A program made the position numbers and the translations under genes. A stretch of DNA of 64,000 nt, from positions 62,001 to 126,000 of the IMG/VR virus record IMGVR_UViG_3300017917_002938; one strand, given 5' to 3'. Positions 102-59,855 of this stretch are shown one piece after another (the stretch's first letter is position 1; each line of letters opens with the position of its first letter). The notes under the pieces are model-generated. The model ran no database searches. It was not told the origin of the DNA and saw only the letters and a program-made list of their open reading frames with translations. The DNA comes from a virus.

Positions 102-176
102 TGGCCCGGCGTGAGGGAATCGAACCCCCATTCGCACTTTAGAAGAATGCTGTCCTATCCATTGAACGAACGCCAG
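102..176 (-). tRNA. tRNA-Arg(TCT)
   Basis: The anticodon loop CTTCTAA gives TCT. The acceptor stem CTGGCGT/ACGCCGG is complete, the T-loop is TTCGATT and CCA is encoded (plus-strand TGG at 102-104). It is the last tRNA of the array in transcription order. Confidence 0.95.
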
Positions 177-185
177 GTATTGTTA

Positions 186-656
186 TTATGCTGCTTTCAG
201 AGATTTAAATCTATCGGCTGCATATGAGGCTGCGAAAGCTTCTGGTTTAACCAAAGGTACAACATTACATGTACCACGAATGTATCCAATAGCTTCATTC
301 ACCACGCATGATGATCCGTGCATTTCGTTAGGGTTGATGTCAAGATGAACTTGAACATCTCTGCCTTCTAGTACATCAGCAAGCTTCAAATACAATTCAC
401 TAACCTTATACACCTCATTCATTAGACGGTAACGTGGGCGATTAAACTTTTGATCGTAGTCACGTTCTTTTTGAATTTCACCAAATAGTTTACAACCGTT
501 ATTACCGTTGATGTGAACGACAATAGCTAGAATGTAATCCGCCCACCATTCCTTACCAACTTTATATCTCTCAGAGTCACAACCAATATAGATTTTTGTT
601 TCTGGAGATTGCGCCTGAATGAATTCTTTTACTTCTTCTAGATCAAGCTTACGCAT
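186..656 (-). CDS. YkuK-like (DUF458) RNase H-fold protein
   Basis: A 156-residue protein that resembles the YkuK/DUF458 family of RNase H-like predicted nucleases. The family pattern is visible as IGCDSE near residue 24, then HLDINPNEMHGSS around residues 104-116 and the C-terminal KPEAFAASYAADR. The family has acidic residues suited to metal binding, but its biochemical role is not settled. The start is supported by AAAGG about 7 nt upstream. It lies between tRNA-Trp and tRNA-Arg, so it is probably co-transcribed with tRNAs and could act in RNA metabolism; that last point is inference. Confidence 0.75.
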   Translation of the reverse strand: MRKLDLEEVKEFIQAQSPETKIYIGCDSERYKVGKEWWADYILAIVVHINGNNGCKLFGEIQKERDYDQKFNRPRYRLMNEVYKVSELYLKLADVLEGRDVQVHLDINPNEMHGSSCVVNEAIGYIRGTCNVVPLVKPEAFAASYAADRFKSLKAA

Positions 657-671
657 AGTACTACCTTTCTA

Positions 672-745
672 TGGCACCCCGAGAGGGATTCGAACCCCCA
701 CCAACGGTTTTGGAGACCGCAATGCTGCCGTTACACCATCGAGAT
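672..745 (-). tRNA. tRNA-Trp(CCA)
   Basis: Anticodon loop CTCCAAA gives CCA. Acceptor ATCTCGA pairs with TCGGGGT using G-T wobbles, the discriminator is G and CCA is encoded at 672-674. A CCTAAATA element (754-761) lies just upstream. Confidence 0.95.
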
Positions 746-753
746 ACGTTTTT

Positions 754-761
754 TATTTAGG
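754..761 (-). promoter_or_regulatory. Late-promoter-like CCTAAATA
   Basis: CCTAAATA on the minus strand, 9 bp upstream of the tRNA-Trp 5' end. The same octamer precedes three protein genes in this window at typical late-promoter distance. A chance match is possible for this copy. Confidence 0.3.
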
Positions 762-796
762 GTGAGGATATGAGTTTGATCCGGCAACGAAGCCGC

Positions 797-824
797 TTAG
801 CAATATGCAATTAGCAATATGCAA
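797..824. repeat. Exact 14-bp tandem direct repeat, two copies
   Basis: The unit TTAGCAATATGCAA occurs at 797-810 and again at 811-824 with no mismatch. It lies in the non-coding leader upstream of tRNA-Trp. Its role is unknown; it may reflect replication slippage. Confidence 0.85.
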
Positions 825-1021
825 TAAGCAGACCACAAAGCATAGGATTCCGTTTATCAACAAGCAGCGACTTTCGTCTTGTATGGAACGGAGCAACAAG
901 CATGGGTTGGTCGGGATTGATCGGATTCGGGTTAACAAGGCCCAAACCTAGCTAGTAAGACATTTCAAGTGTCAACTAGATTGCAACAACGCCCCCTTCA
1001 CTCCCCCATACCCTCAAAACT

Positions 1022-1603
1022 TTATAGAATACCTTCCGCTTTAAGAGTCTGAACGGTTAGTTCAGACAATGTAATCAAGGTATTGACATTGAGTTGTAAG
1101 AGTTTATCTTGCAGCTCTTGACGATCACGCTTGAGGTTTCTAACTGCATTTTTTGCAGCGTCAATATCTGATTGCAACACTACGCTGGTTTCAACGTTGT
1201 TAAAACGGTCACCGTAAATGGATGCACGCGCAGAATCGGAAGGTTGTTCTTTGAACTTTTGAATTCGTGCACTGATTTCAATCTGACTCTTACGAGGTTT
1301 GAGACCTGCAATCACACTATGTACGGCCATAGAAGCGTCTGTAGCTTCTACTTCTGCTAAGATAGTGTTAATGTCAGCATCAGCATTAGCCTTACCTACG
1401 CGTTTACGAATGTCGTACATTGCGTTGATAAGTGATAGTTTACGAGTAACTGTATCGTTTAACTCTGCACGGTTTTTGGTAAGAGTATCTTCTACCCCAT
1501 CTGTAAACTCAGATACCTGAGTCTCAGATTCAAATTTTATTCCGTTAATAGTTTTACGAATCTCGGCTTGAATTGCATTAGCTTTACGTAGATTAACTTG
1601 CAT
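1022..1603 (-). CDS. Hypothetical coiled-coil protein
   Basis: A 193-residue, mostly helical, charged protein with heptad-like patterns at both ends (for example DIDAAKNAVRNLKRDRQELQDKLLQL near the C-terminus). I do not recognise a functional family. The ATG at 1603 is preferred to an upstream in-frame codon because AAAGGAA lies 6 nt before it. It is read from the promoter at 1629-1657, which starts next to the tRNA-Phe CCA end, so it forms a unit with that promoter inside the tRNA array. Confidence 0.75.
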   Translation of the reverse strand: MQVNLRKANAIQAEIRKTINGIKFESETQVSEFTDGVEDTLTKNRAELNDTVTRKLSLINAMYDIRKRVGKANADADINTILAEVEATDASMAVHSVIAGLKPRKSQIEISARIQKFKEQPSDSARASIYGDRFNNVETSVVLQSDIDAAKNAVRNLKRDRQELQDKLLQLNVNTLITLSELTVQTLKAEGIL

Positions 1604-1628
1604 GTTATTTCCTTTCAATCAATAATGT

Positions 1629-1657
1629 ATTCTATATGAATTTTTTAATAAGATCAA
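1629..1657 (-). promoter_or_regulatory. Early-type promoter
   Basis: TTGATC (1652-1657), a 17-nt spacer and TAGAAT (1629-1634) on the minus strand. The -35 starts 2 nt after the CCA of tRNA-Phe. It serves the coiled-coil gene at 1022-1603. Confidence 0.65.
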
Positions 1658-1659
1658 CT

Positions 1660-1735
1660 TGGTGCTGCCTCGTGGGATCGAACCACGTTCCTCGGTTCTT
1701 CAGACCGGTGCTATGACCACATCAGCTAAAGCAGC
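1660..1735 (-). tRNA. tRNA-Phe(GAA)
   Basis: The anticodon loop CTGAAGA gives GAA. Acceptor GCTGCTT pairs with AGGCAGC, the T-loop is TTCGATC and CCA is encoded. The outermost anticodon-stem pair is a C-A mismatch. Confidence 0.93.
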
Positions 1736-1742
1736 ATTAAAT

Positions 1743-1817
1743 TGGTACCTGGTCACGGTTTCGAACCGCGGACCCTCTCCTTGTAAGGGAGACGCTCTAC
1801 CCCTGAGCTAACCAGGC
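1743..1817 (-). tRNA. tRNA-Val(TAC)
   Basis: Anticodon loop CTTACAA gives TAC. Acceptor GCCTGGT/ACCAGGT, T-loop TTCGAAA, encoded CCA at 1743-1745. Confidence 0.95.
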
Positions 1818-1828
1818 ATAATTCTCTT

Positions 1829-1904
1829 TGGGGTACTATAAGAGGATCGAACTCTTACTATCTCGGTCACAGCGAGAGGTGCAGACCACTACACTAATAG
1901 TACC
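1829..1904 (-). tRNA. tRNA-His(GTG)
   Basis: Anticodon loop CTGTGAC gives GTG. The acceptor GTACTAT/ATAGTAC is extended by a genomic G at -1 (position 1904) opposite C73, the usual identity element of histidine tRNA. CCA is encoded at 1829-1831. Confidence 0.95.
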
Positions 1905-1914
1905 CCAAAAAGAA

Positions 1915-2148
1915 CTAAGTTATTTGTTTCTGTACTCTACCTATACGACTATTTTTACTCCAATCATATTTGGTTCCATCTGGACATTTTCCATCTTTGA
2001 CAGAATCTACTCCAAATTTACCAACAATCTCTGTAACGCCGTTTGTAATAGTTACAAACTTTCCATATGCTTTTGCAAACTCCAATGCATCATTCAATGT
2101 TGGACTTGCGTTTAGTATCATACCGTTTTCTATTTTAATATTCCACAT
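1915..2148 (-). CDS. Hypothetical protein, 77 aa
   Basis: A small soluble-looking protein starting MWNIKIENGMILNASPTLNDAL. AAGGA lies 5 nt before the ATG, which makes translation likely. It sits between tRNA-Gln and tRNA-His with only about 10 nt on each side. No family is recognised. Confidence 0.65.
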   Translation of the reverse strand: MWNIKIENGMILNASPTLNDALEFAKAYGKFVTITNGVTEIVGKFGVDSVKDGKCPDGTKYDWSKNSRIGRVQKQIT

Positions 2149-2157
2149 AAAAATCCT

Positions 2158-2231
2158 TGGCCGGGGTGCTAGGGCTCGAACCTAGAATAGCAGAGTCAAA
2201 GTCTGCGGTGTTACCATTACACTACACCCCA
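2158..2231 (-). tRNA. tRNA-Gln(TTG)
   Basis: Anticodon loop CTTTGAC gives TTG. The acceptor TGGGGTG/CACCCCG begins with T1, as in many glutamine tRNAs. Discriminator G, CCA encoded at 2158-2160. Confidence 0.95.
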
Positions 2232-2239
2232 ATAATGAA

Positions 2240-2455
2240 TTTGTTGTAGTAGTGCCGCCATCGTTATCGGCACCATTCACCTGGATTAACTAGCCCGGGC
2301 AGGACTCGGTAAGTCACTTGGGATACTCATCCAGTTAGCAACCATACTGCGGCGATCTTCCGATCGCCCGGGAGTTGAACCCGTCCCCTTCTACTATATC
2401 AGTCCTTCGAAGAAACCTTTATAGCGTGACATTCTCTTGCTGACACTACAACAAA
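2240..2455 (-). ncRNA. Structured spacer RNA between tRNA-Pro and tRNA-Gln
   Basis: A 216-nt spacer without a gene, closed by complementary ends (2240-2248 with 2447-2455, plus a further GTG/CAC pairing). Inside, on the minus strand, are a 7-bp GGCGATC/GATCGCC hairpin with a GGAA (GNRA) tetraloop, a CTGGAT/ATCCAG pairing, a GTGCCG/CGGCAC hairpin and a T-arm-like CGGGTTCAACTCCCG. This density of complementary segments suggests a folded RNA. It does not match tmRNA, RNase P RNA or a group I intron as far as I can judge by eye. Confidence 0.55.
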
Positions 2456-2458
2456 ACT

Positions 2459-2535
<77 letters not shown>

Positions 2536-2541
2536 ATAACT

Positions 2542-2615
2542 TGGTGCCCCTTGACAGAATCGAACTGCCGTACCCGGGTTACAAAGCCGGTGTAATACCA
2601 CTATACTAAAAGGGC
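2542..2615 (-). tRNA. tRNA-Thr(TGT)
   Basis: Anticodon loop TTTGTAA gives TGT. Acceptor GCCCTTT/AAGGGGC and T-loop TTCGATT are normal. The last anticodon-stem pair (31-39) is a C-C mismatch. CCA is encoded. Confidence 0.9.
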
Positions 2616-2620
2616 AAAAA

Positions 2621-2695
2621 TGGCTCCGGTGGCTGGGATCGAACCAACGACCAATTGATTAACAGTCAACTGCACTACCGCTGTGCTACACCGGA
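2621..2695 (-). tRNA. tRNA-Asn(GTT)
   Basis: Anticodon loop CTGTTAA gives GTT. Acceptor TCCGGTG/CACCGGA, discriminator G, T-loop TTCGATC, CCA encoded at 2621-2623. Confidence 0.95.
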
Positions 2696-2701
2696 ATAAC
2701 C

Positions 2702-2775
2702 TGGTTGCGGGAGAGGGAATCGAACCCCCATCTGGAGCTTATGAGACTCCTGAATTACCGTTACTCTATCCCGCG
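2702..2775 (-). tRNA. tRNA-Met(CAT), initiator-like
   Basis: Anticodon loop CTCATAA gives CAT. The acceptor CGCGGGA faces TCCCGCA, so the first pair is a C1-A72 mismatch, the hallmark of bacterial initiator tRNA; the 3' end CCCGCAACCA is like that of E. coli tRNA-fMet. The anticodon stem (GGAGT/GCTCC) lacks the three G-C pairs that normally help initiator tRNA enter the P site. I call it initiator-like with reserve. Confidence 0.85.
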
Positions 2776-2782
2776 TCAAAAT

Positions 2783-2857
2783 TGGCGGTCTCAAGGGGTA
2801 ACGATCCCCTTCTTTATGCGTGACAGGCATACGTGCGTCCATGAACACTTTGAGACC
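2783..2857 (-). tRNA. tRNA-Asp(GTC), variant T-loop
   Basis: Anticodon loop CTGTCAC gives GTC. Acceptor GGTCTCA/TGAGACC, discriminator G, CCA encoded. The T-loop reads ATCGTTA in place of TTCGANT, so the usual T54-A58 pair is reversed to A54-T58. Three other tRNAs here share this. Confidence 0.92.
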
Positions 2858-3044
2858 TATATTCTTTGCACGGCTACGTTTTTCAAGTCGCCCCGTACTG
2901 AGTTTACAACCCTGTCGCCACCTTTGCTTATTCTGCTGTGTGGATCATCATACCAGATTCTGCTTACGTCTGCGCTAACGGTCTTCTGGACACCGGATCT
3001 TTATCGCGTAATCAAGCGCCTCTGCCACGCTGAGGAGCGGAAAC
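2858..3044. other. 187-nt spacer between tRNA-Tyr and tRNA-Asp
   Basis: No gene with a credible start is seen. Short complementary stretches exist (for example AGCG/CGCT and CGGT/ACCG on the minus strand), but unlike the other long spacers the ends are not complementary. It may hold another structured RNA or be a processing spacer. Confidence 0.4.
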
Positions 3045-3133
3045 TGGTGGAAGTGGTAGGATTCGAACCTACAGCGTTTCTTATGTGGCGGATTTACAGT
3101 CCGTTGCCTTCAACCAATTCAGCACACACTTCC
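3045..3133 (-). tRNA. tRNA-Tyr(GTA), class II
   Basis: Anticodon loop CTGTAAA gives GTA. The 89-nt gene has the long variable arm usual for bacterial tyrosine tRNA. Acceptor GGAAGTG/CACTTCC, discriminator A, CCA encoded at 3045-3047. Confidence 0.95.
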
Positions 3134-3138
3134 AATTT

Positions 3139-3222
3139 TGGTGCCCCAGGAGAGACTCGAACTCTCACGCCTTTCGACATTGGCTTCTAAGACCAACGTG
3201 TCTACCATTCCACCACCGGGGC
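3139..3222 (-). tRNA. tRNA-Leu(TAG), class II
   Basis: Anticodon loop CTTAGAA gives TAG. Acceptor GCCCCGG/CTGGGGC, long variable arm, discriminator A, CCA encoded. Its 5' end is 4 nt from a 21-bp spacer stem. Confidence 0.95.
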
Positions 3223-3226
3223 AAAT

Positions 3227-3382
3227 TACCATTTGTTTAGTGTTATCGTGCCTATTTGTCAACAATGTAGCTAGCACTGACAAGCGAATAACAGTTATAT
3301 CAGACAGTGTTGGTCGCACCCTTACTGTCGCGTAGTCATAGCGTCCTATGACGATACCTTTGATAACACTAAACAAATGGTA
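3227..3382 (-). ncRNA. Hairpin-bounded spacer between tRNA-Glu and tRNA-Leu
   Basis: The two ends, 3227-3247 and 3362-3382, are perfectly complementary over 21 bp. The downstream plus-strand arm contains the CCA, the discriminator and nucleotide 72 of tRNA-Glu, so this stem competes with the mature tRNA 3' end. The 114-nt interior has further stems, among them GTCATA/TATGAC and GACAGT/ACTGTC. No gene is present. It may be a processing signal or a separate stable RNA. Confidence 0.65.
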
Positions 3383-3453
3383 CACCGTACGGGAATCGAA
3401 CCCGTCTTACCAACGTGAAAGGCTGGTGTCCTAAACCGATAGACGAACGGTGC
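3378..3453 (-). tRNA. tRNA-Glu(TTC)
   Basis: Anticodon loop CTTTCAC gives TTC. Acceptor GCACCGT/ACGGTGT, T-loop TTCGATT, encoded CCA at 3378-3380, which also lies in the 21-bp spacer stem. Confidence 0.95.
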
Positions 3454-3480
3454 ATTTAACTTTTTTAAAGAACGAAACGA

Positions 3481-3509
3481 ATTATATTCTGCGATGGAAA
3501 ATAAATCAA
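3481..3509 (-). promoter_or_regulatory. Early-type promoter inside the tRNA array
   Basis: TTGATT (3504-3509), 17 nt, TATAAT (3481-3486) on the minus strand. The -35 begins 2 nt after the CCA of tRNA-Ile(GAT). It would drive tRNA-Glu and the downstream tRNAs. Confidence 0.85.
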
Positions 3510-3510
3510 C

Positions 3511-3584
3511 TGGTCCTTTCGAGAGGTAACGATCCTCTGTCTCTCGGTTATCAGCCGAGTGCTCTACCTTTGAGCTACGAAAGG
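3511..3584 (-). tRNA. tRNA-Ile(GAT), variant T-loop
   Basis: Anticodon loop CTGATAA gives GAT. Acceptor CCTTTCG/CGAAAGG, discriminator A, CCA encoded. The T arm AGAGG-ATCGTTA-CCTCT carries the reversed A54/T58 pair. Confidence 0.93.
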
Positions 3585-3585
3585 T

Positions 3586-3660
3586 TGGTGGTAATGAAGA
3601 GACTCGAACTCCTAACCTACACCGTATGAAGGTGCCGCACTACCATTGTGCTACATTACC
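3586..3660 (-). tRNA. tRNA with anticodon CAT (elongator Met or lysidine-type Ile)
   Basis: Anticodon loop TTCATAC gives CAT. The acceptor GGTAATG/CATTACC is fully paired, which argues against an initiator. Whether C34 stays C (Met) or becomes lysidine (Ile, AUA) cannot be told from sequence. Its 5' end overlaps the last codons of the methyltransferase gene by 7 nt. Confidence 0.9.
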
Positions 3661-4193
3661 AGTCTAGATGGTTTTACAGCCTGCAATGCAAACTTTAGCG
3701 TATCGTCGGTCTGAAAGTCTAAATGTACACATTTAAAATCTGCCTTATAGATATACCTAAAATCTGACATCGATGTCTTACCAATTTGCCTTGTGTATTC
3801 GGATTGATCGAGAAATATAAGAGATTCTTTTTGAATCACTCTCGTATGACTCGGATCTCCCCATACCCAGGGCGAGTTAATATTTGGACAGGTAGCCATC
3901 AAGAAACCTCCTGGTTTCAGAATTCTCCAGAACTCACTAAACTGAGCAAAGAAAAATTTATAGTCTCCCTGTCTTCCGGTATGTTCTAGAACTTCATATG
4001 CATGAATTTCATCAAACGTATTATCCTCAAAAACCGAATATGGTATGTTACAAAGATCCCACACTATATCCGGTTTATGATCGCGGTTAATATCAAGGGT
4101 AGTTAGATTATTCCATTCAGGATTACCATCATGAATGACTTTCTCTCTACGACTACCACATCCAATTAATAGTTCTTTTTTATAGTTTACCAT
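3651..4193 (-). CDS. Class I SAM-dependent methyltransferase
   Basis: A 180-residue Methyltransf_11-like protein. Motif I appears as LLIGCGSRREK (residues 8-18), an acidic strand end as TLDIN near residue 32, the post-motif region as FDEIHAYEVLEH around 59-70 and motif V/VI as WRILKPGGFLMATCPN around 87-102. The substrate is unknown; small phage enzymes of this type are found with sugar or RNA modification genes. The ATG at 4191-4193 has no clear ribosome binding site and lies inside one arm of a 19-nt inverted repeat (4188-4206 with 4272-4290), so its translation may be controlled by RNA structure. The stop codon abuts the tRNA(CAT) acceptor. Confidence 0.8.
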   Translation of the reverse strand: MVNYKKELLIGCGSRREKVIHDGNPEWNNLTTLDINRDHKPDIVWDLCNIPYSVFEDNTFDEIHAYEVLEHTGRQGDYKFFFAQFSEFWRILKPGGFLMATCPNINSPWVWGDPSHTRVIQKESLIFLDQSEYTRQIGKTSMSDFRYIYKADFKCVHLDFQTDDTLKFALQAVKPSRLVM

Positions 4194-4290
4194 ATAGAAA
4201 CATACTAAATCTGCGACACCGTCAAATGCCGCATCGCCTAGTTGACGCTAGACCGCCAGAGTGTGGCGTTCAGTATGTTTTTATATGGTA
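4188..4290 (-). ncRNA. Hairpin-bounded spacer between tRNA-Lys and the methyltransferase
   Basis: Arms 4188-4206 and 4272-4290 match over 18 of 19 positions. On the minus strand the first arm contains the tRNA-Lys discriminator and CCA and the second contains the start codon of the methyltransferase. The interior holds a perfect CGCCA/TGGCG hairpin. It could link tRNA processing with translation of the next gene; that is inference. Confidence 0.6.
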
Positions 4291-4360
4291 GGGGCACAGA
4301 GAATCGAACTCTGATTAATAGGTTAAAAGCCTACTACTTTAGCCGTTAAGTTATACCCCC
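4286..4360 (-). tRNA. tRNA-Lys(TTT)
   Basis: Anticodon loop CTTTTAA gives TTT. Acceptor GGGGGTA/TGCCCCT, T-loop TTCGATT, discriminator A, CCA encoded. Its first 10 nt (4351-4360) are also the end of a 43-codon gene. Confidence 0.94.
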
Positions 4361-4482
4361 AGCAATTCTTGTTTTTGAGCTCTACGTAGTGCCTTATTAG
4401 ACTTACGATGAACTCCTGCTTTACGAAAAAGCGCTAAACGAACGAAGCAGTTACGTTCGCGCGCGATGGGTTTTCGTTTCAT
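4351..4482 (-). CDS. Small basic protein, 43 aa
   Basis: A 43-residue, arginine- and lysine-rich protein beginning MKRKPIARERNCFVRLALFR and ending KNKALRRAQ-like, then QELLGV. GAGGAAAAA precedes the ATG at good distance. Very similar short basic proteins (RNPFV...FRKAG.HRKSNKA..R) are, as I recall, common in tailed phages, with unknown function and a plausible nucleic-acid-binding role. The stop codon lies in the acceptor stem of tRNA-Lys. Confidence 0.8.
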   Translation of the reverse strand: MKRKPIARERNCFVRLALFRKAGVHRKSNKALRRAQKQELLGV

Positions 4483-4527
4483 TTTTTCCTCACTTTAAGT
4501 TTTTGTCGATTACTACTATTAGTATTA

Positions 4528-4557
4528 TTACGATAAGAAGTACTGAGACCGCCCCAT
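4528..4557 (-). other. Possible 9-codon leader ORF with a strong ribosome binding site
   Basis: AAGGAG, 6 nt, then ATG and only eight sense codons (MGRSQYFLS-like) before a run of stop codons. The site follows directly from the promoter at 4581-4609 and precedes the 43-aa gene. Such a short reading frame with so good a start site could be a leader peptide. Confidence 0.35.
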
Positions 4558-4580
4558 GTTGTTTCTCCTTAACAAGTCTA

Positions 4581-4609
4581 ATTATAGATGTAGTTGGAAA
4601 ATAAGGCAA
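4581..4609 (-). promoter_or_regulatory. Early-type promoter
   Basis: TTGCCT (4604-4609), 17 nt, TATAAT (4581-4586), minus strand. It drives the leader ORF, the 43-aa gene and tRNA-Lys. Confidence 0.8.
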
Positions 4610-4638
4610 CAACTTTTTTTCTAACTATTTCTAGTTAC

Positions 4639-4716
4639 TGGAGTGTCGAGTCAGATTTGAACTGACGGCTTTACGGGTTTGCAATCCGTTCCCTTGGACC
4701 TCTCGGGCATCGACAC
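4639..4716 (-). tRNA. tRNA-Cys(GCA)
   Basis: Anticodon loop TTGCAAA gives GCA. Acceptor GTGTCGA/TCGACAC with discriminator T73, the cysteine identity base. The closing anticodon-stem pair is A-C. CCA is encoded at 4639-4641. Confidence 0.93.
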
Positions 4717-4721
4717 ATATC

Positions 4722-4795
4722 TGGTGCTGCTAGGAGGTAACGATCCTCCGTTTCCGCCTTACCAAGGCGGTGTAATACCTTTATACTATAGCAGC
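4722..4795 (-). tRNA. tRNA-Thr(GGT), variant T-loop
   Basis: Anticodon loop TTGGTAA gives GGT. Acceptor GCTGCTA/TAGCAGC, discriminator A, CCA encoded. T arm GGAGG-ATCGTTA-CCTCC has the reversed A54/T58 pair. Confidence 0.93.
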
Positions 4796-4800
4796 AAAAA

Positions 4801-4888
4801 TGGCGGAGGGTATCAGACTCGAACTGATGCGCCCATTTCTGAACGACGGTTTAGCAAACCGCTGGTTTAACCGCTCACCCAACCCTCC
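4801..4888 (-). tRNA. tRNA-Ser(GCT), class II
   Basis: Anticodon loop TTGCTAA gives GCT. Long variable arm, acceptor GGAGGGT/ACCCTCC, discriminator G, CCA encoded. Position 1 overlaps the stop codon of the upstream phosphoesterase gene. Confidence 0.94.
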
Positions 4889-5475
4889 TAAGTAGCAAAC
4901 TTCCACTCTGTTTTTTCTTTAAACCCTACCTCACCACCTTGCTCTTTTATTCTTTTGAACACCTCTTCAAGCAGTATTGGTCTAAAGTCAATCTGCTCAA
5001 CACAGACAGAGAAATAGCGAGGATCAATTTTTTTTCCATGTTTAGTAAATCCATCATCCATTTTTACTCTATTCGAATGGAGATGTCCATGAACGTTGCA
5101 GCCAAACCGATACAGTTGGTCAGGGTGCACTGGTACATGAGTAAAAATACAACCGTTCATTACATGGCTGCCTCTGATATCTCTAAAGTATTGAGTGTAT
5201 TCTTCAAGTTTAAAAATATCGTGGTTACCTTTAATCAACACTTTGTCTCCGTTCAACCGACCTAGCGTTTTTAATGCTTTACGGTTGATAACAACGTCGC
5301 CTAGATGATATACTTTGTCATTGGGTCGAACAGTTTCGTTCCACCGCTTGACCATTTCTTCATCCATCTCATCCGGGTTATCCCACGGCCTGAGCTTCTC
5401 TCCGTCTTCACGTGTAAATCGGCATACGCCGGCGTGACCGAAGTGCGTATCGCTAACTACGAATACCGATGGCAT
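4888..5475 (-). CDS. Calcineurin-like metallophosphoesterase
   Basis: A 195-residue phosphoesterase with the standard metal-binding motifs in order: SDTHFGH (8-14), GDVV (59-62), KGNHD (82-86), THVP (112-115) and HGHLH (129-133). The family hydrolyses phosphomono- or diesters with two metal ions; the substrate is unknown. AAAGGAGG lies 6 nt before the ATG. It sits inside the tRNA array, so an RNA-end processing role is possible, but other phage copies occur away from tRNAs. Its stop codon shares one base with tRNA-Ser. Confidence 0.88.
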   Translation of the reverse strand: MPSVFVVSDTHFGHAGVCRFTREDGEKLRPWDNPDEMDEEMVKRWNETVRPNDKVYHLGDVVINRKALKTLGRLNGDKVLIKGNHDIFKLEEYTQYFRDIRGSHVMNGCIFTHVPVHPDQLYRFGCNVHGHLHSNRVKMDDGFTKHGKKIDPRYFSVCVEQIDFRPILLEEVFKRIKEQGGEVGFKEKTEWKFAT

Positions 5476-5495
5476 ATACGCCTCCTTTCATGTTA

Positions 5496-5590
5496 TGGTA
5501 CTCCCGACAGGATTCGAACCTGTATCATCCCCTCATCTAGAGGCATCGCCGAGGTATAAGCTCGGAGTTTTACCGTTAAACTACAGGAGC
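5496..5590 (-). tRNA. Class II tRNA with anticodon TAT (isotype uncertain)
   Basis: The fold is clear: acceptor GCTCCTG/CGGGAGT, D stem GTTT/AAAC, anticodon stem CCGAG/CTCGG with loop CTTATAC, T arm ACAGG-TTCGAAT-CCTGT, discriminator A and encoded CCA. TAT would read AUA (Ile). The variable region is about 25 nt with its own CCTC/GAGG stem, as in Leu, Ser or Tyr tRNAs and not as in Ile tRNAs. It is therefore either an isoleucine tRNA with an insertion or a leucine/tyrosine-type tRNA reading AUA. Confidence 0.85.
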
Positions 5591-5598
5591 ATCTAAAG

Positions 5599-5672
5599 TG
5601 GTCTGGGTGGCAAGAATCGAACTTGCACCTCAAGTATCCAAGACTCGTCGACTACCACTATCCTACACCCAG
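5599..5672 (-). tRNA. tRNA-Pro(TGG), second copy, atypical
   Basis: Anticodon stem CGAGT/ACTTG with loop CTTGGAT gives TGG. Acceptor CTGGGTG/CACCCAG, discriminator A, CCA encoded. Position 37 is A, where proline tRNAs have G, and the D stem is weak. Proline is the best call, less sure than the others. Confidence 0.8.
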
Positions 5673-5680
5673 ATAAAAAT

Positions 5681-5756
5681 TGGTGGACCGGCGGGGTAAC
5701 GATCCCCGATCTTCGCATTGCAAGTGCGACGTGTAGCCCTCTATCACTACCAGCCC
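5681..5756 (-). tRNA. tRNA-Ala(TGC), variant T-loop
   Basis: Anticodon loop CTTGCAA gives TGC. Acceptor GGGCTGG/CCGGTCC, discriminator A, CCA encoded. T arm CGGGG-ATCGTTA-CCCCG has the reversed A54/T58 pair. Confidence 0.92.
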
Positions 5757-5760
5757 AAAA

Positions 5761-5796
5761 TGACTTACTACTTGTCCTATTATACGCCATAAGTCA
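5761..5796. repeat. Short inverted repeat in the Ala/Ser spacer
   Basis: TGACTTA (5761-5767) and TAAGTCA (5790-5796) can form a 7-bp stem with a 22-nt loop. It is a smaller version of the spacer hairpins seen elsewhere in the array. Confidence 0.5.
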
Positions 5797-5806
5797 AGGC
5801 GAGTTT

Positions 5807-5899
5807 TGGCGGAGACGGTGAGACTCGAACTCACACACCCATTTCTGAGCCTTCGGTTTTCAAGACCGCTGCCGCTATGCCGATTCGGCTAACATCTCC
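5807..5899 (-). tRNA. tRNA-Ser(TGA), class II
   Basis: Anticodon loop CTTGAAA gives TGA. Long variable arm, acceptor GGAGATG/CGTCTCC, discriminator G, CCA encoded at 5807-5809. Confidence 0.94.
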
Positions 5900-5904
5900 T
5901 TATT

Positions 5905-5978
5905 TGGAGCGGATAGGGGAAATCGAATCCCACTCTGCACAGCTTGGAAGGCTGGCGACACACCTCGTGCTTACCCGC
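5905..5978 (-). tRNA. tRNA-Gly(TCC)
   Basis: Anticodon loop CTTCCAA gives TCC. Acceptor GCGGGTA/TATCCGC, discriminator T, T-loop TTCGATT, CCA encoded at 5905-5907. Confidence 0.94.
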
Positions 5979-5982
5979 ATAA

Positions 5983-6061
5983 ACCATATAAAAGTTCTTT
6001 GCTCAGTATGGACTCTGACTATGCCTTGTCGTTACAAGCATTCAAAGAACTTTTATATGGT
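5983..6061 (-). ncRNA. Hairpin spacer between tRNA-Leu(CAA) and tRNA-Gly(TCC)
   Basis: Arms 5983-6001 and 6043-6061 are perfectly complementary over 19 bp. The arm next to tRNA-Leu includes its disc-CCA; the other ends 4 nt from the tRNA-Gly 5' end, the same geometry as the spacer at 3227-3382. The 41-nt loop holds a CTTGT/ACAAG mini-hairpin. Confidence 0.65.
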
Positions 6062-6139
6062 ACCCCTGCTCGGACTCGAACCGAGACTTACTAACACTCC
6101 TTTTGAGAGAGCTGCCTTTACCAATTTGGCCACAGGGGC
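6058..6139 (-). tRNA. tRNA-Leu(CAA)
   Basis: Anticodon loop CTCAAAA gives CAA. Acceptor GCCCCTG/CAGGGGT, discriminator A, CCA encoded; the variable arm is short for a leucine tRNA (about 10 nt). Confidence 0.93.
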
Positions 6140-6142
6140 ACA

Positions 6143-6217
6143 TGGAGCGGGCAGCGAGGATCGAACTCGCAACTAAACCTTGGCAAGGTCTCGTGTTACC
6201 ATTAGCACCATGCCCGC
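6143..6217 (-). tRNA. tRNA-Gly(GCC)
   Basis: Anticodon loop TTGCCAA gives GCC. Acceptor GCGGGCA/TGCCCGC, discriminator T, T-loop TTCGATC, CCA encoded at 6143-6145. Confidence 0.95.
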
Positions 6218-6223
6218 ATCATA

Positions 6224-6299
6224 TGGCCGGTCCTGAGAGAATCGAACTCCCACTTCAGCGTTCGTAGCGCTGCGTAATCATCCATTTTACTAAGGACCG
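6224..6299 (-). tRNA. tRNA-Arg(ACG)
   Basis: Anticodon loop CTACGAA gives ACG. Acceptor CGGTCCT/AGGACCG, discriminator G, CCA encoded at 6224-6226. It is the first tRNA downstream of the main array promoter. Confidence 0.95.
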
Positions 6300-59578: not shown

Positions 59579-59855
59579 TACTTTTAAGGTCTTTTTCGAA
59601 TGTAAAAAAGGCTTTCATTTTTTGTTCTTCTGTCCATGAAGAACAATAATCATTATCAACATCACATAGAGATAATGCTTGTTCTTGTGATACTACTCGA
59701 TGAGAAACAATAGTCTCTCCTAAGTGCTCTTGACTAAATTCCTGAGCCTCTTGACATACTACGGTGTCAAGGGCGTATTCAGGATGACTGTCTGGCGTCT
59801 CAACCATGTAACGCATACGGAACATTGATACTGCTTCTACTAATACCCAGGCCAT
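59571..59855 (-). CDS. Conserved T4-like protein, 94 aa
   Basis: VEAVSMFRMRYMVETPD at the start and EFSQEHLGETIVSHRVV, then DNDYCSSWTEEQK, a pattern conserved in T4-like phages, function unknown. It overlaps both neighbours. Confidence 0.7.
   Translation of the reverse strand: MAWVLVEAVSMFRMRYMVETPDSHPEYALDTVVCQEAQEFSQEHLGETIVSHRVVSQEQALSLCDVDNDYCSSWTEEQKMKAFFTFEKDLKSNV

Follow-up and report, generated by a model that had tools for sequence, protein, structure and literature searches.

A tRNA gene with a UAU anticodon, encoded on the minus strand at positions 5496–5590 of the window (the whole 64,000-nt stretch of viral DNA analysed), carries a second hairpin in its variable arm whose loop displays GAU, the standard isoleucine anticodon. 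The reading we favour, with a probability of roughly 60%, is that this is an AUA-decoding tRNA-Ile in which the variable hairpin mimics the anticodon arm of tRNA-Ile(GAU) for IleRS, making lysidine unnecessary. By this mechanism, the host IleRS would recognise the variable hairpin as a tRNA-Ile(GAU) anticodon arm and charge the tRNA with isoleucine, while the ribosome would use the UAU arm at AUA codons, with the tRNA serving as an elongator that delivers isoleucine. A UAU tRNA, which IleRS normally charges poorly in most bacteria, could then be charged without TilS or lysidine, and an A at position 33 of the variable loop would stop that loop from acting as a decoding loop. We also think it probable that the gene belongs to a naturally occurring family of tRNAs whose two anticodon arms have separate functions, the ribosome using UAU and the synthetase reading a GAU relocated to the variable region, and that this design has spread among phages and into bacterial genomes.

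Structure and setting of the tRNA gene

The viral record is 163.5 kb long and shows a partial relationship to Stenotrophomonas phage DLP_6. Within the first 6.3 kb of the window, a minus-strand cluster (102–6299) holds 27 tRNAs called by ARAGORN together with a missed tRNA-Gly(UCC), and covers all 20 amino acids. The tRNA-Gly(UCC), at about 5901–5975 on the minus strand (loop CTTCCAA, acceptor GCGGGTA/TATCCGC), was read by eye, having been missed by both ARAGORN and Rfam. Beside the tRNA-Leu(CAA), positions 5985–6060 contain an inverted repeat of about 17 bp (ATATAAAAGTTCTTTG ... CAAAGAACTTTTATAT), perhaps with a role in processing or termination. The phage's own class I tRNA-Ile(GAU), which served for comparison, was called by ARAGORN at 3511–3584 (minus strand) and has the loop CTGATAA.

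The UAU tRNA is 95 nt long including an encoded CCA, was called as tRNA(tat) by ARAGORN and scored 60.1 bits against the Rfam tRNA family RF00005 (gathering threshold, 29), and is therefore a member of it. Its cloverleaf is of the 7/5 type, with an acceptor stem of 7 bp (including G1·U72), a D stem of 4 bp and anticodon and T stems of 5 bp each. The 5′ half reads GCTCCTG TA GTTT AACGGTA AAAC T CCGAG CTTATAC CTCGG and is followed by a variable region of 25 nt (CGATG CCTC TAGATGA GGGG ATGAT; 5524–5548, minus strand) and a 3′ part, ACAGG TTCGAAT CCTGT CGGGAGT A CCA. The UAU anticodon (5556–5558, minus strand) lies within the loop CUUAUAC (5554–5560). The variable hairpin (5529–5543, minus strand) consists of 4 bp (CCTC/GGGG) and the loop TAGATGA, with a 5-nt linker to the T stem, and the GAU triplet proposed as the IleRS anticodon mimic occupies loop positions 3–5 (5535–5537, minus strand). 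The initial annotation had described a long variable arm with its own stem, a discriminator A and an anticodon for AUA; all three are borne out, the discriminator being A73. Minimum-energy folds did not always return the cloverleaf, and the folding z-score was unremarkable.

A GAU loop tied to the UAU anticodon

In an alignment of 41 diverse members, pairing of the variable hairpin holds in 93.3% of cells, with double changes at four of four pairs; an arm found repeatedly in diverse relatives, with covariation at its four pairs, is more than a product of chance. Among the matches listed, 70 of 73 UAU tRNAs with a variable region of at least 20 nt have GAU at positions 3–5 of a 7-nt variable loop. 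This sample was picked by the UAU anticodon and a long gap to the T loop, and the sequence of the variable loop played no part. L066, which is among the 70, has poor pairing next to the loop, and the exceptions are L015, with a GAC loop, and L093 and L108, with other loops. The last two, also UAU tRNAs, have another kind of variable hairpin (loops CTAACAA and CTAGCAA), a possible second solution. In true Leu, Ser and Tyr arms, GAU stands at the same loop positions in 2 of 501 cases.

The association was also found when the anticodon was left unspecified. Scanning with the variable loop CAGATTA and the T loop returned 121 hits, 103 of which are called UAU tRNAs and five more of which show CTTATA; the remaining hits have the motif elsewhere, for example in the anticodon loop of a tRNA-Arg. 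A second such scan, with CAGATAA, gave nothing but UAU tRNAs wherever the motif forms a variable hairpin, and such hairpins are tied one-to-one to UAU in both scans. Besides the usual tRNA invariants, the aligned members have invariant columns at anticodon-loop UUAU and variable-loop GAU; the former was imposed by the search and the latter by the choice of members, and the fair counts are the 70 of 73 and the reverse scan. The variable loop CAGATAA is one base apart from the tRNA-Ile(GAU) anticodon loop CTGATAA, and one relative (L090) has exactly CTGATAA as its variable loop. Three viral class I tRNAs-Ile(GAU) (L405, L415 and L468) have the anticodon loop CAGATAA, with A replacing the near-universal U33.

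The placement of the hairpin is equally regular. Its linker to the T stem measures 5–6 nt in 84 of 84 non-redundant relatives, close to the usual length of a class I variable loop, and the distance from the variable loop to the T stem is 9–10 nt, compared with 10 from a class I anticodon loop. In the Leu, Ser and Tyr tRNAs found at the same loci, the linker is almost always 1–3 nt (for Tyr, mostly). The earlier classification as a class II arm like that of Leu or Tyr tRNAs holds for the length of the variable region (25 nt, above 10) but not for the linker. We rejected an intramolecular kissing partner for GAU, as the alignment of members shows no conserved unpaired candidate within the tRNA, which points to a reader outside it. 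Taken from sequence conservation, the case for a GAU-specific reader of the variable loop is strong; that this reader may be IleRS is suggested indirectly.

Isoleucine identity elements in the body and the variable hairpin

The 12–23 pair of E. coli tRNA-Ile is U12–A23, and U–A is found in 68 of 80 Ile tRNAs of the compared loci. Published determinants of E. coli tRNA-Ile include the discriminator, the anticodon, t6A37, C4–G69, a 12–23 pair (printed as U12–G23) and C29–G41 (PMC9976931). The body of the window tRNA carries A73, A37, U12–A23 and C4–G69. Its UAU arm has G29–C41 and C38 rather than C29–G41 and A38, and the variable hairpin has C–G and A at the positions equivalent to 29–41 and 38.

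The same division is seen across the family, based on non-redundant sets of 84 members, 75 tRNAs-Ile(GAU) and 387 other class I tRNAs. C–G at 29–41 or its equivalent occurs in 82% of variable hairpins versus 25% of the members' own anticodon stems, 44% of tRNAs-Ile(GAU) and 17% of other class I tRNAs (Fisher P = 7e-14 against the own stem and 2e-30 against other class I tRNAs, treating related sequences as independent). A38 or its equivalent occurs in 82% of variable loops versus 48% of own anticodon loops, and in 85% of tRNAs-Ile(GAU); it weighs less than C29–G41 because it is common in other class I tRNAs (311 of 387). Both differences suggest that the variable hairpin retains features read by IleRS, which are relaxed in the UAU arm. 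The initial annotation had allowed for an unusual isoleucine tRNA, and this branch gains support from the body elements and from GAU and the C–G pair in the hairpin. The likeness to an Ile anticodon loop has exceptions, namely A rather than U at the 33 position (79 of 84) and mostly U at the 37 position. Both count against IleRS mimicry, the U at 37 because bacterial IleRS relies strongly on t6A37 as a determinant.

These two mismatches sit more comfortably with an alternative in which IleRS charges the tRNA through its UAU arm and body, and the hairpin serves another purpose, for instance a U34 modification enzyme, stability or escape from a host anticodon nuclease. The conserved A73, A37 and U12–A23 would suit it too, and short-loop class I UAU tRNAs without the hairpin are also present in viral contigs, so that in some hosts UAU can suffice by itself. 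Close relatives with a short variable loop had been named at the outset, next to plain isoleucine at AUA, as grounds for dropping the initial interpretation. This applies by half: short-loop UAU tRNAs do exist, but among the close relatives the long arm is retained. We consider charging through the UAU arm plausible but unlikely, because it leaves unexplained an exact Ile anticodon at anticodon geometry, the C–G pair at the 29–41 equivalent and a motif that never accompanies another anticodon.

Distribution among phages and bacterial genomes

The family, which is widespread in phages and occurs in some bacterial chromosomes, is represented here by at least 204 distinct sequences, or 84 after redundancy removal. 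A scan of viral contigs for UAU, a long gap and the T loop gave at least 120 loci, and ARAGORN, applied to the loci gathered by then, called 84 UAU tRNAs among the matches listed, mostly with a variable region of 21–27 nt. A covariance model also matched ordinary tRNAs at about 55 bits and was left out of the counting. BLAST with the window tRNA returned few named phages, and DLP_6 was reached through a neighbouring gene; named phages with the tRNA are Lactobacillus phages LpeD and ENFP1, Acinetobacter phage qsb1, Vibrio phage 12VC501 and Stenotrophomonas phage DLP_6.

Scanning of genomes returned 70 stretches, mostly containing this tRNA, from Ruegeria and other Roseobacter relatives, Acidobacteriota, Pseudoxanthomonas, Planctomycetota and others, and some of these bacterial contigs may be prophage or misbinned virus. 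Several Ruegeria species share the surroundings over kilobases, and between genera it is often the tRNA alone that aligns. We rejected the idea that the tRNA is general within one bacterial family, given that the strict pattern is matched by only 2 of the 199 genomes from the family to which the Ruegeria genome belongs. The idea that its bacterial carriers are without lysidine was likewise rejected: TilS is present in 23 of 23 tested bacterial genomes with the tRNA, and there the UAU tRNA is therefore an addition. In Pseudoxanthomonas, the tRNA adjoins genes resembling the methylase and helicase genes of a defence island at one locus (L330) and a large putative NTPase at another (L384).

The D arm is very short or unusual in some relatives. 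Among Acidobacterial members, the D arm is strongly altered (CCTCC..GGAGG) in L322, L342, L350, L358, L365, L379 and L381, several of which adjoin other tRNAs; these members may correspond to the published allo-tRNA(UAU). Unusual D arms speak for a non-translational or selfish tRNA-like RNA, in line with the transposon or toxin–antitoxin idea for the Acidobacterial allo-tRNA(UAU). The related-looking allo-tRNA(UAU) is also reported as inactive and unusable in E. coli (PMC7609411), which counts against the IleRS-mimic reading as well. A selfish RNA is nonetheless improbable, since the phage gene sits in a tRNA array covering all amino acids, U8, A14, G18, the T-loop bases and CCA are invariant in the aligned members, and Ruegeria and its relatives conserve the tRNA where the flanks differ.

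Body class compared with Leu, Ser and Tyr tRNAs

The initial annotation had also raised charging by LeuRS or TyrRS, and with it recoding of AUA. The nematode nev-tRNAs would be a parallel: nev-tRNA-Ile(UAU) is charged only with Leu in vitro (PMC4300185). Body class was scored in 162 relatives using a classifier that works position by position and was trained on the tRNAs found at the same loci; it recovers 262 of 283 Leu and 158 of 172 Ser tRNAs. This isotype scoring assigned no single class to the body: it was Leu in at most 6 of the 162, Leu and Ser were rarely the best class and Tyr was the best class for 36. The G1·U72 pair is found in 93 of 162 long UAU tRNAs, 36 of 90 short UAU tRNAs and 6 of 80 tRNAs-Ile(GAU); it is also frequent in viral tRNA-Leu and rare in CAU, Ser and Tyr tRNAs, and is a possible antideterminant.

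A Leu or Tyr tRNA recoding AUA would account for the long variable region and A73, and for Leu also for the shared G1·U72. However, the near absence of Leu bodies speaks against it, as do the 12–23 pair, which is U–A in the family as in Ile tRNAs and G–C or C–G in Leu, and the 5–6-nt spacing between arm and T stem, which differs from that of Leu arms and of most Tyr arms. Tyr identity needs U35, which the UAU anticodon lacks, and G1–C72, typical of Tyr tRNAs (56 of 63), occurs in just 22 of the 162 relatives and is replaced by G1·U72 in the window tRNA. The GAU loop would also go unexplained, and recoding by LeuRS or TyrRS, which is left unsupported, appears very improbable. Serine identity was rejected on the basis of A73 (Ser tRNAs have G73) and a body that is not Ser-like. 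An artefact, a pseudogene or a chance insertion in one phage tRNA, to which only the unusual shape and the folding z-score would point, is refuted by the many relatives with covarying stems.

AUA use and other routes to AUA in the phage

AUA makes up 802 of 41,879 codons in open frames of at least 120 aa (19 per 1000) and 28.7% of Ile codons, compared with 37% expected from four-fold sites. No TilS was found above the cut-off in the phage genome. The premise of the initial annotation that AUA in bacteria normally needs a lysidine-modified CAU tRNA is correct (PMC9976931), although some bacteria are known to have UAU tRNAs-Ile (PMC8450103). A third CAU tRNA lies upstream of the window, on the minus strand at genome positions 59604–59678 (L398:19604-19678), and resembles E. 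coli tRNA-Ile rather than tRNA-Met (best match E. coli tRNA-Ile, 79% over 91% of the length, with weak E-values of 0.05–0.2). Judged by this resemblance, it may be a lysidine-dependent Ile2, in which case the UAU tRNA may offer an additional route to AUA rather than being its sole possible reader.

Support for and implications of a proposed synthetase-read hairpin

The GAU loop, its one-to-one link to UAU, the C–G pair at 29–41, the 5–6-nt linker and the Ile body elements together favour recognition of the variable hairpin by IleRS, as do the 802 AUA codons in a phage with no TilS above the cut-off. Against this stand the Ile2-like CAU tRNA and the retention of the hairpin in LpeD and ENFP1, although the group to which their hosts belong reportedly uses a UAU tRNA-Ile, according to the titles of references in PMC9976931. 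We infer that IleRS charges the tRNA, that it does so by reading the variable loop and that the ribosome works with the UAU arm.

Decoding of AUA is a textbook conflict between anticodon identity and codon reading in the Ile/Met box. If our reading is true, the addition of a second anticodon hairpin that serves identity alone would be a new way of keeping the genetic code, in which identity and decoding, normally sharing one anticodon in tRNA-Ile, are split between two hairpins. It would explain how phages can bring a UAU tRNA into hosts in which IleRS normally depends on GAU or lysidine, and would provide a ready-made design separating decoding from charging.

Comparison with known systems

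Among known tRNAs, the class I tRNA-Ile(UAU) (Ile3) of Mollicutes, Bifidobacterium and lactic acid bacteria uses the same UAU for AUA without lysidine and has Ile body elements; unlike the window tRNA, Ile3 tRNAs have, as far as known, a short variable loop and no second hairpin. The known cases are linked to a host IleRS that accepts UAU (PMC8450103; references in PMC9976931). The tRNA-Ile2(CAU) with lysidine or ava2C likewise solves AUA decoding by presenting an acceptable signal to IleRS, but does so through a TilS-dependent modification of C34 (PMC11938285), whereas the signal of the window tRNA would be a separate hairpin.

The allo-tRNA(UAU) of Acidobacteria and soil metagenomes, as outlined in the relevant section of the review PMC7609411, shares UAU, a long variable arm and Terriglobia hosts. 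Mukai et al. 2017 observed it without explaining it, and that section of the review makes no mention of a GAU loop. Our Terriglobia loci, likened to it by description, may be the same genes. However, allo-tRNA(UAU) is described there as 8/4 or five-stem and related to serine allo-tRNAs, whereas the window tRNA is 7/5 with A73; the 12-bp acceptor branch of allo-tRNAs (8/4 or 9/3) is absent from it and from its aligned relatives, all of which are 7/5. The nematode nev-tRNA-Ile(UAU) also shares UAU and a variable arm, but its arm is Leu-like, it is charged with Leu and it is eukaryotic (PMC4300185), whereas neither the placement of the arm nor the body is Leu-like in the window family.

No description of the GAU variable-arm loop, or of the family as such, was found in the literature searched, which covered few subscription journals; UAU tRNAs-Ile without such a hairpin are already known. 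In plant-virus tRNA-like structures, such as that of brome mosaic virus, the synthetase reads a displaced hairpin that mimics the anticodon; unlike the window tRNA, these structures are the 3′ ends of viral RNAs rather than tRNAs, and do not take part in decoding.
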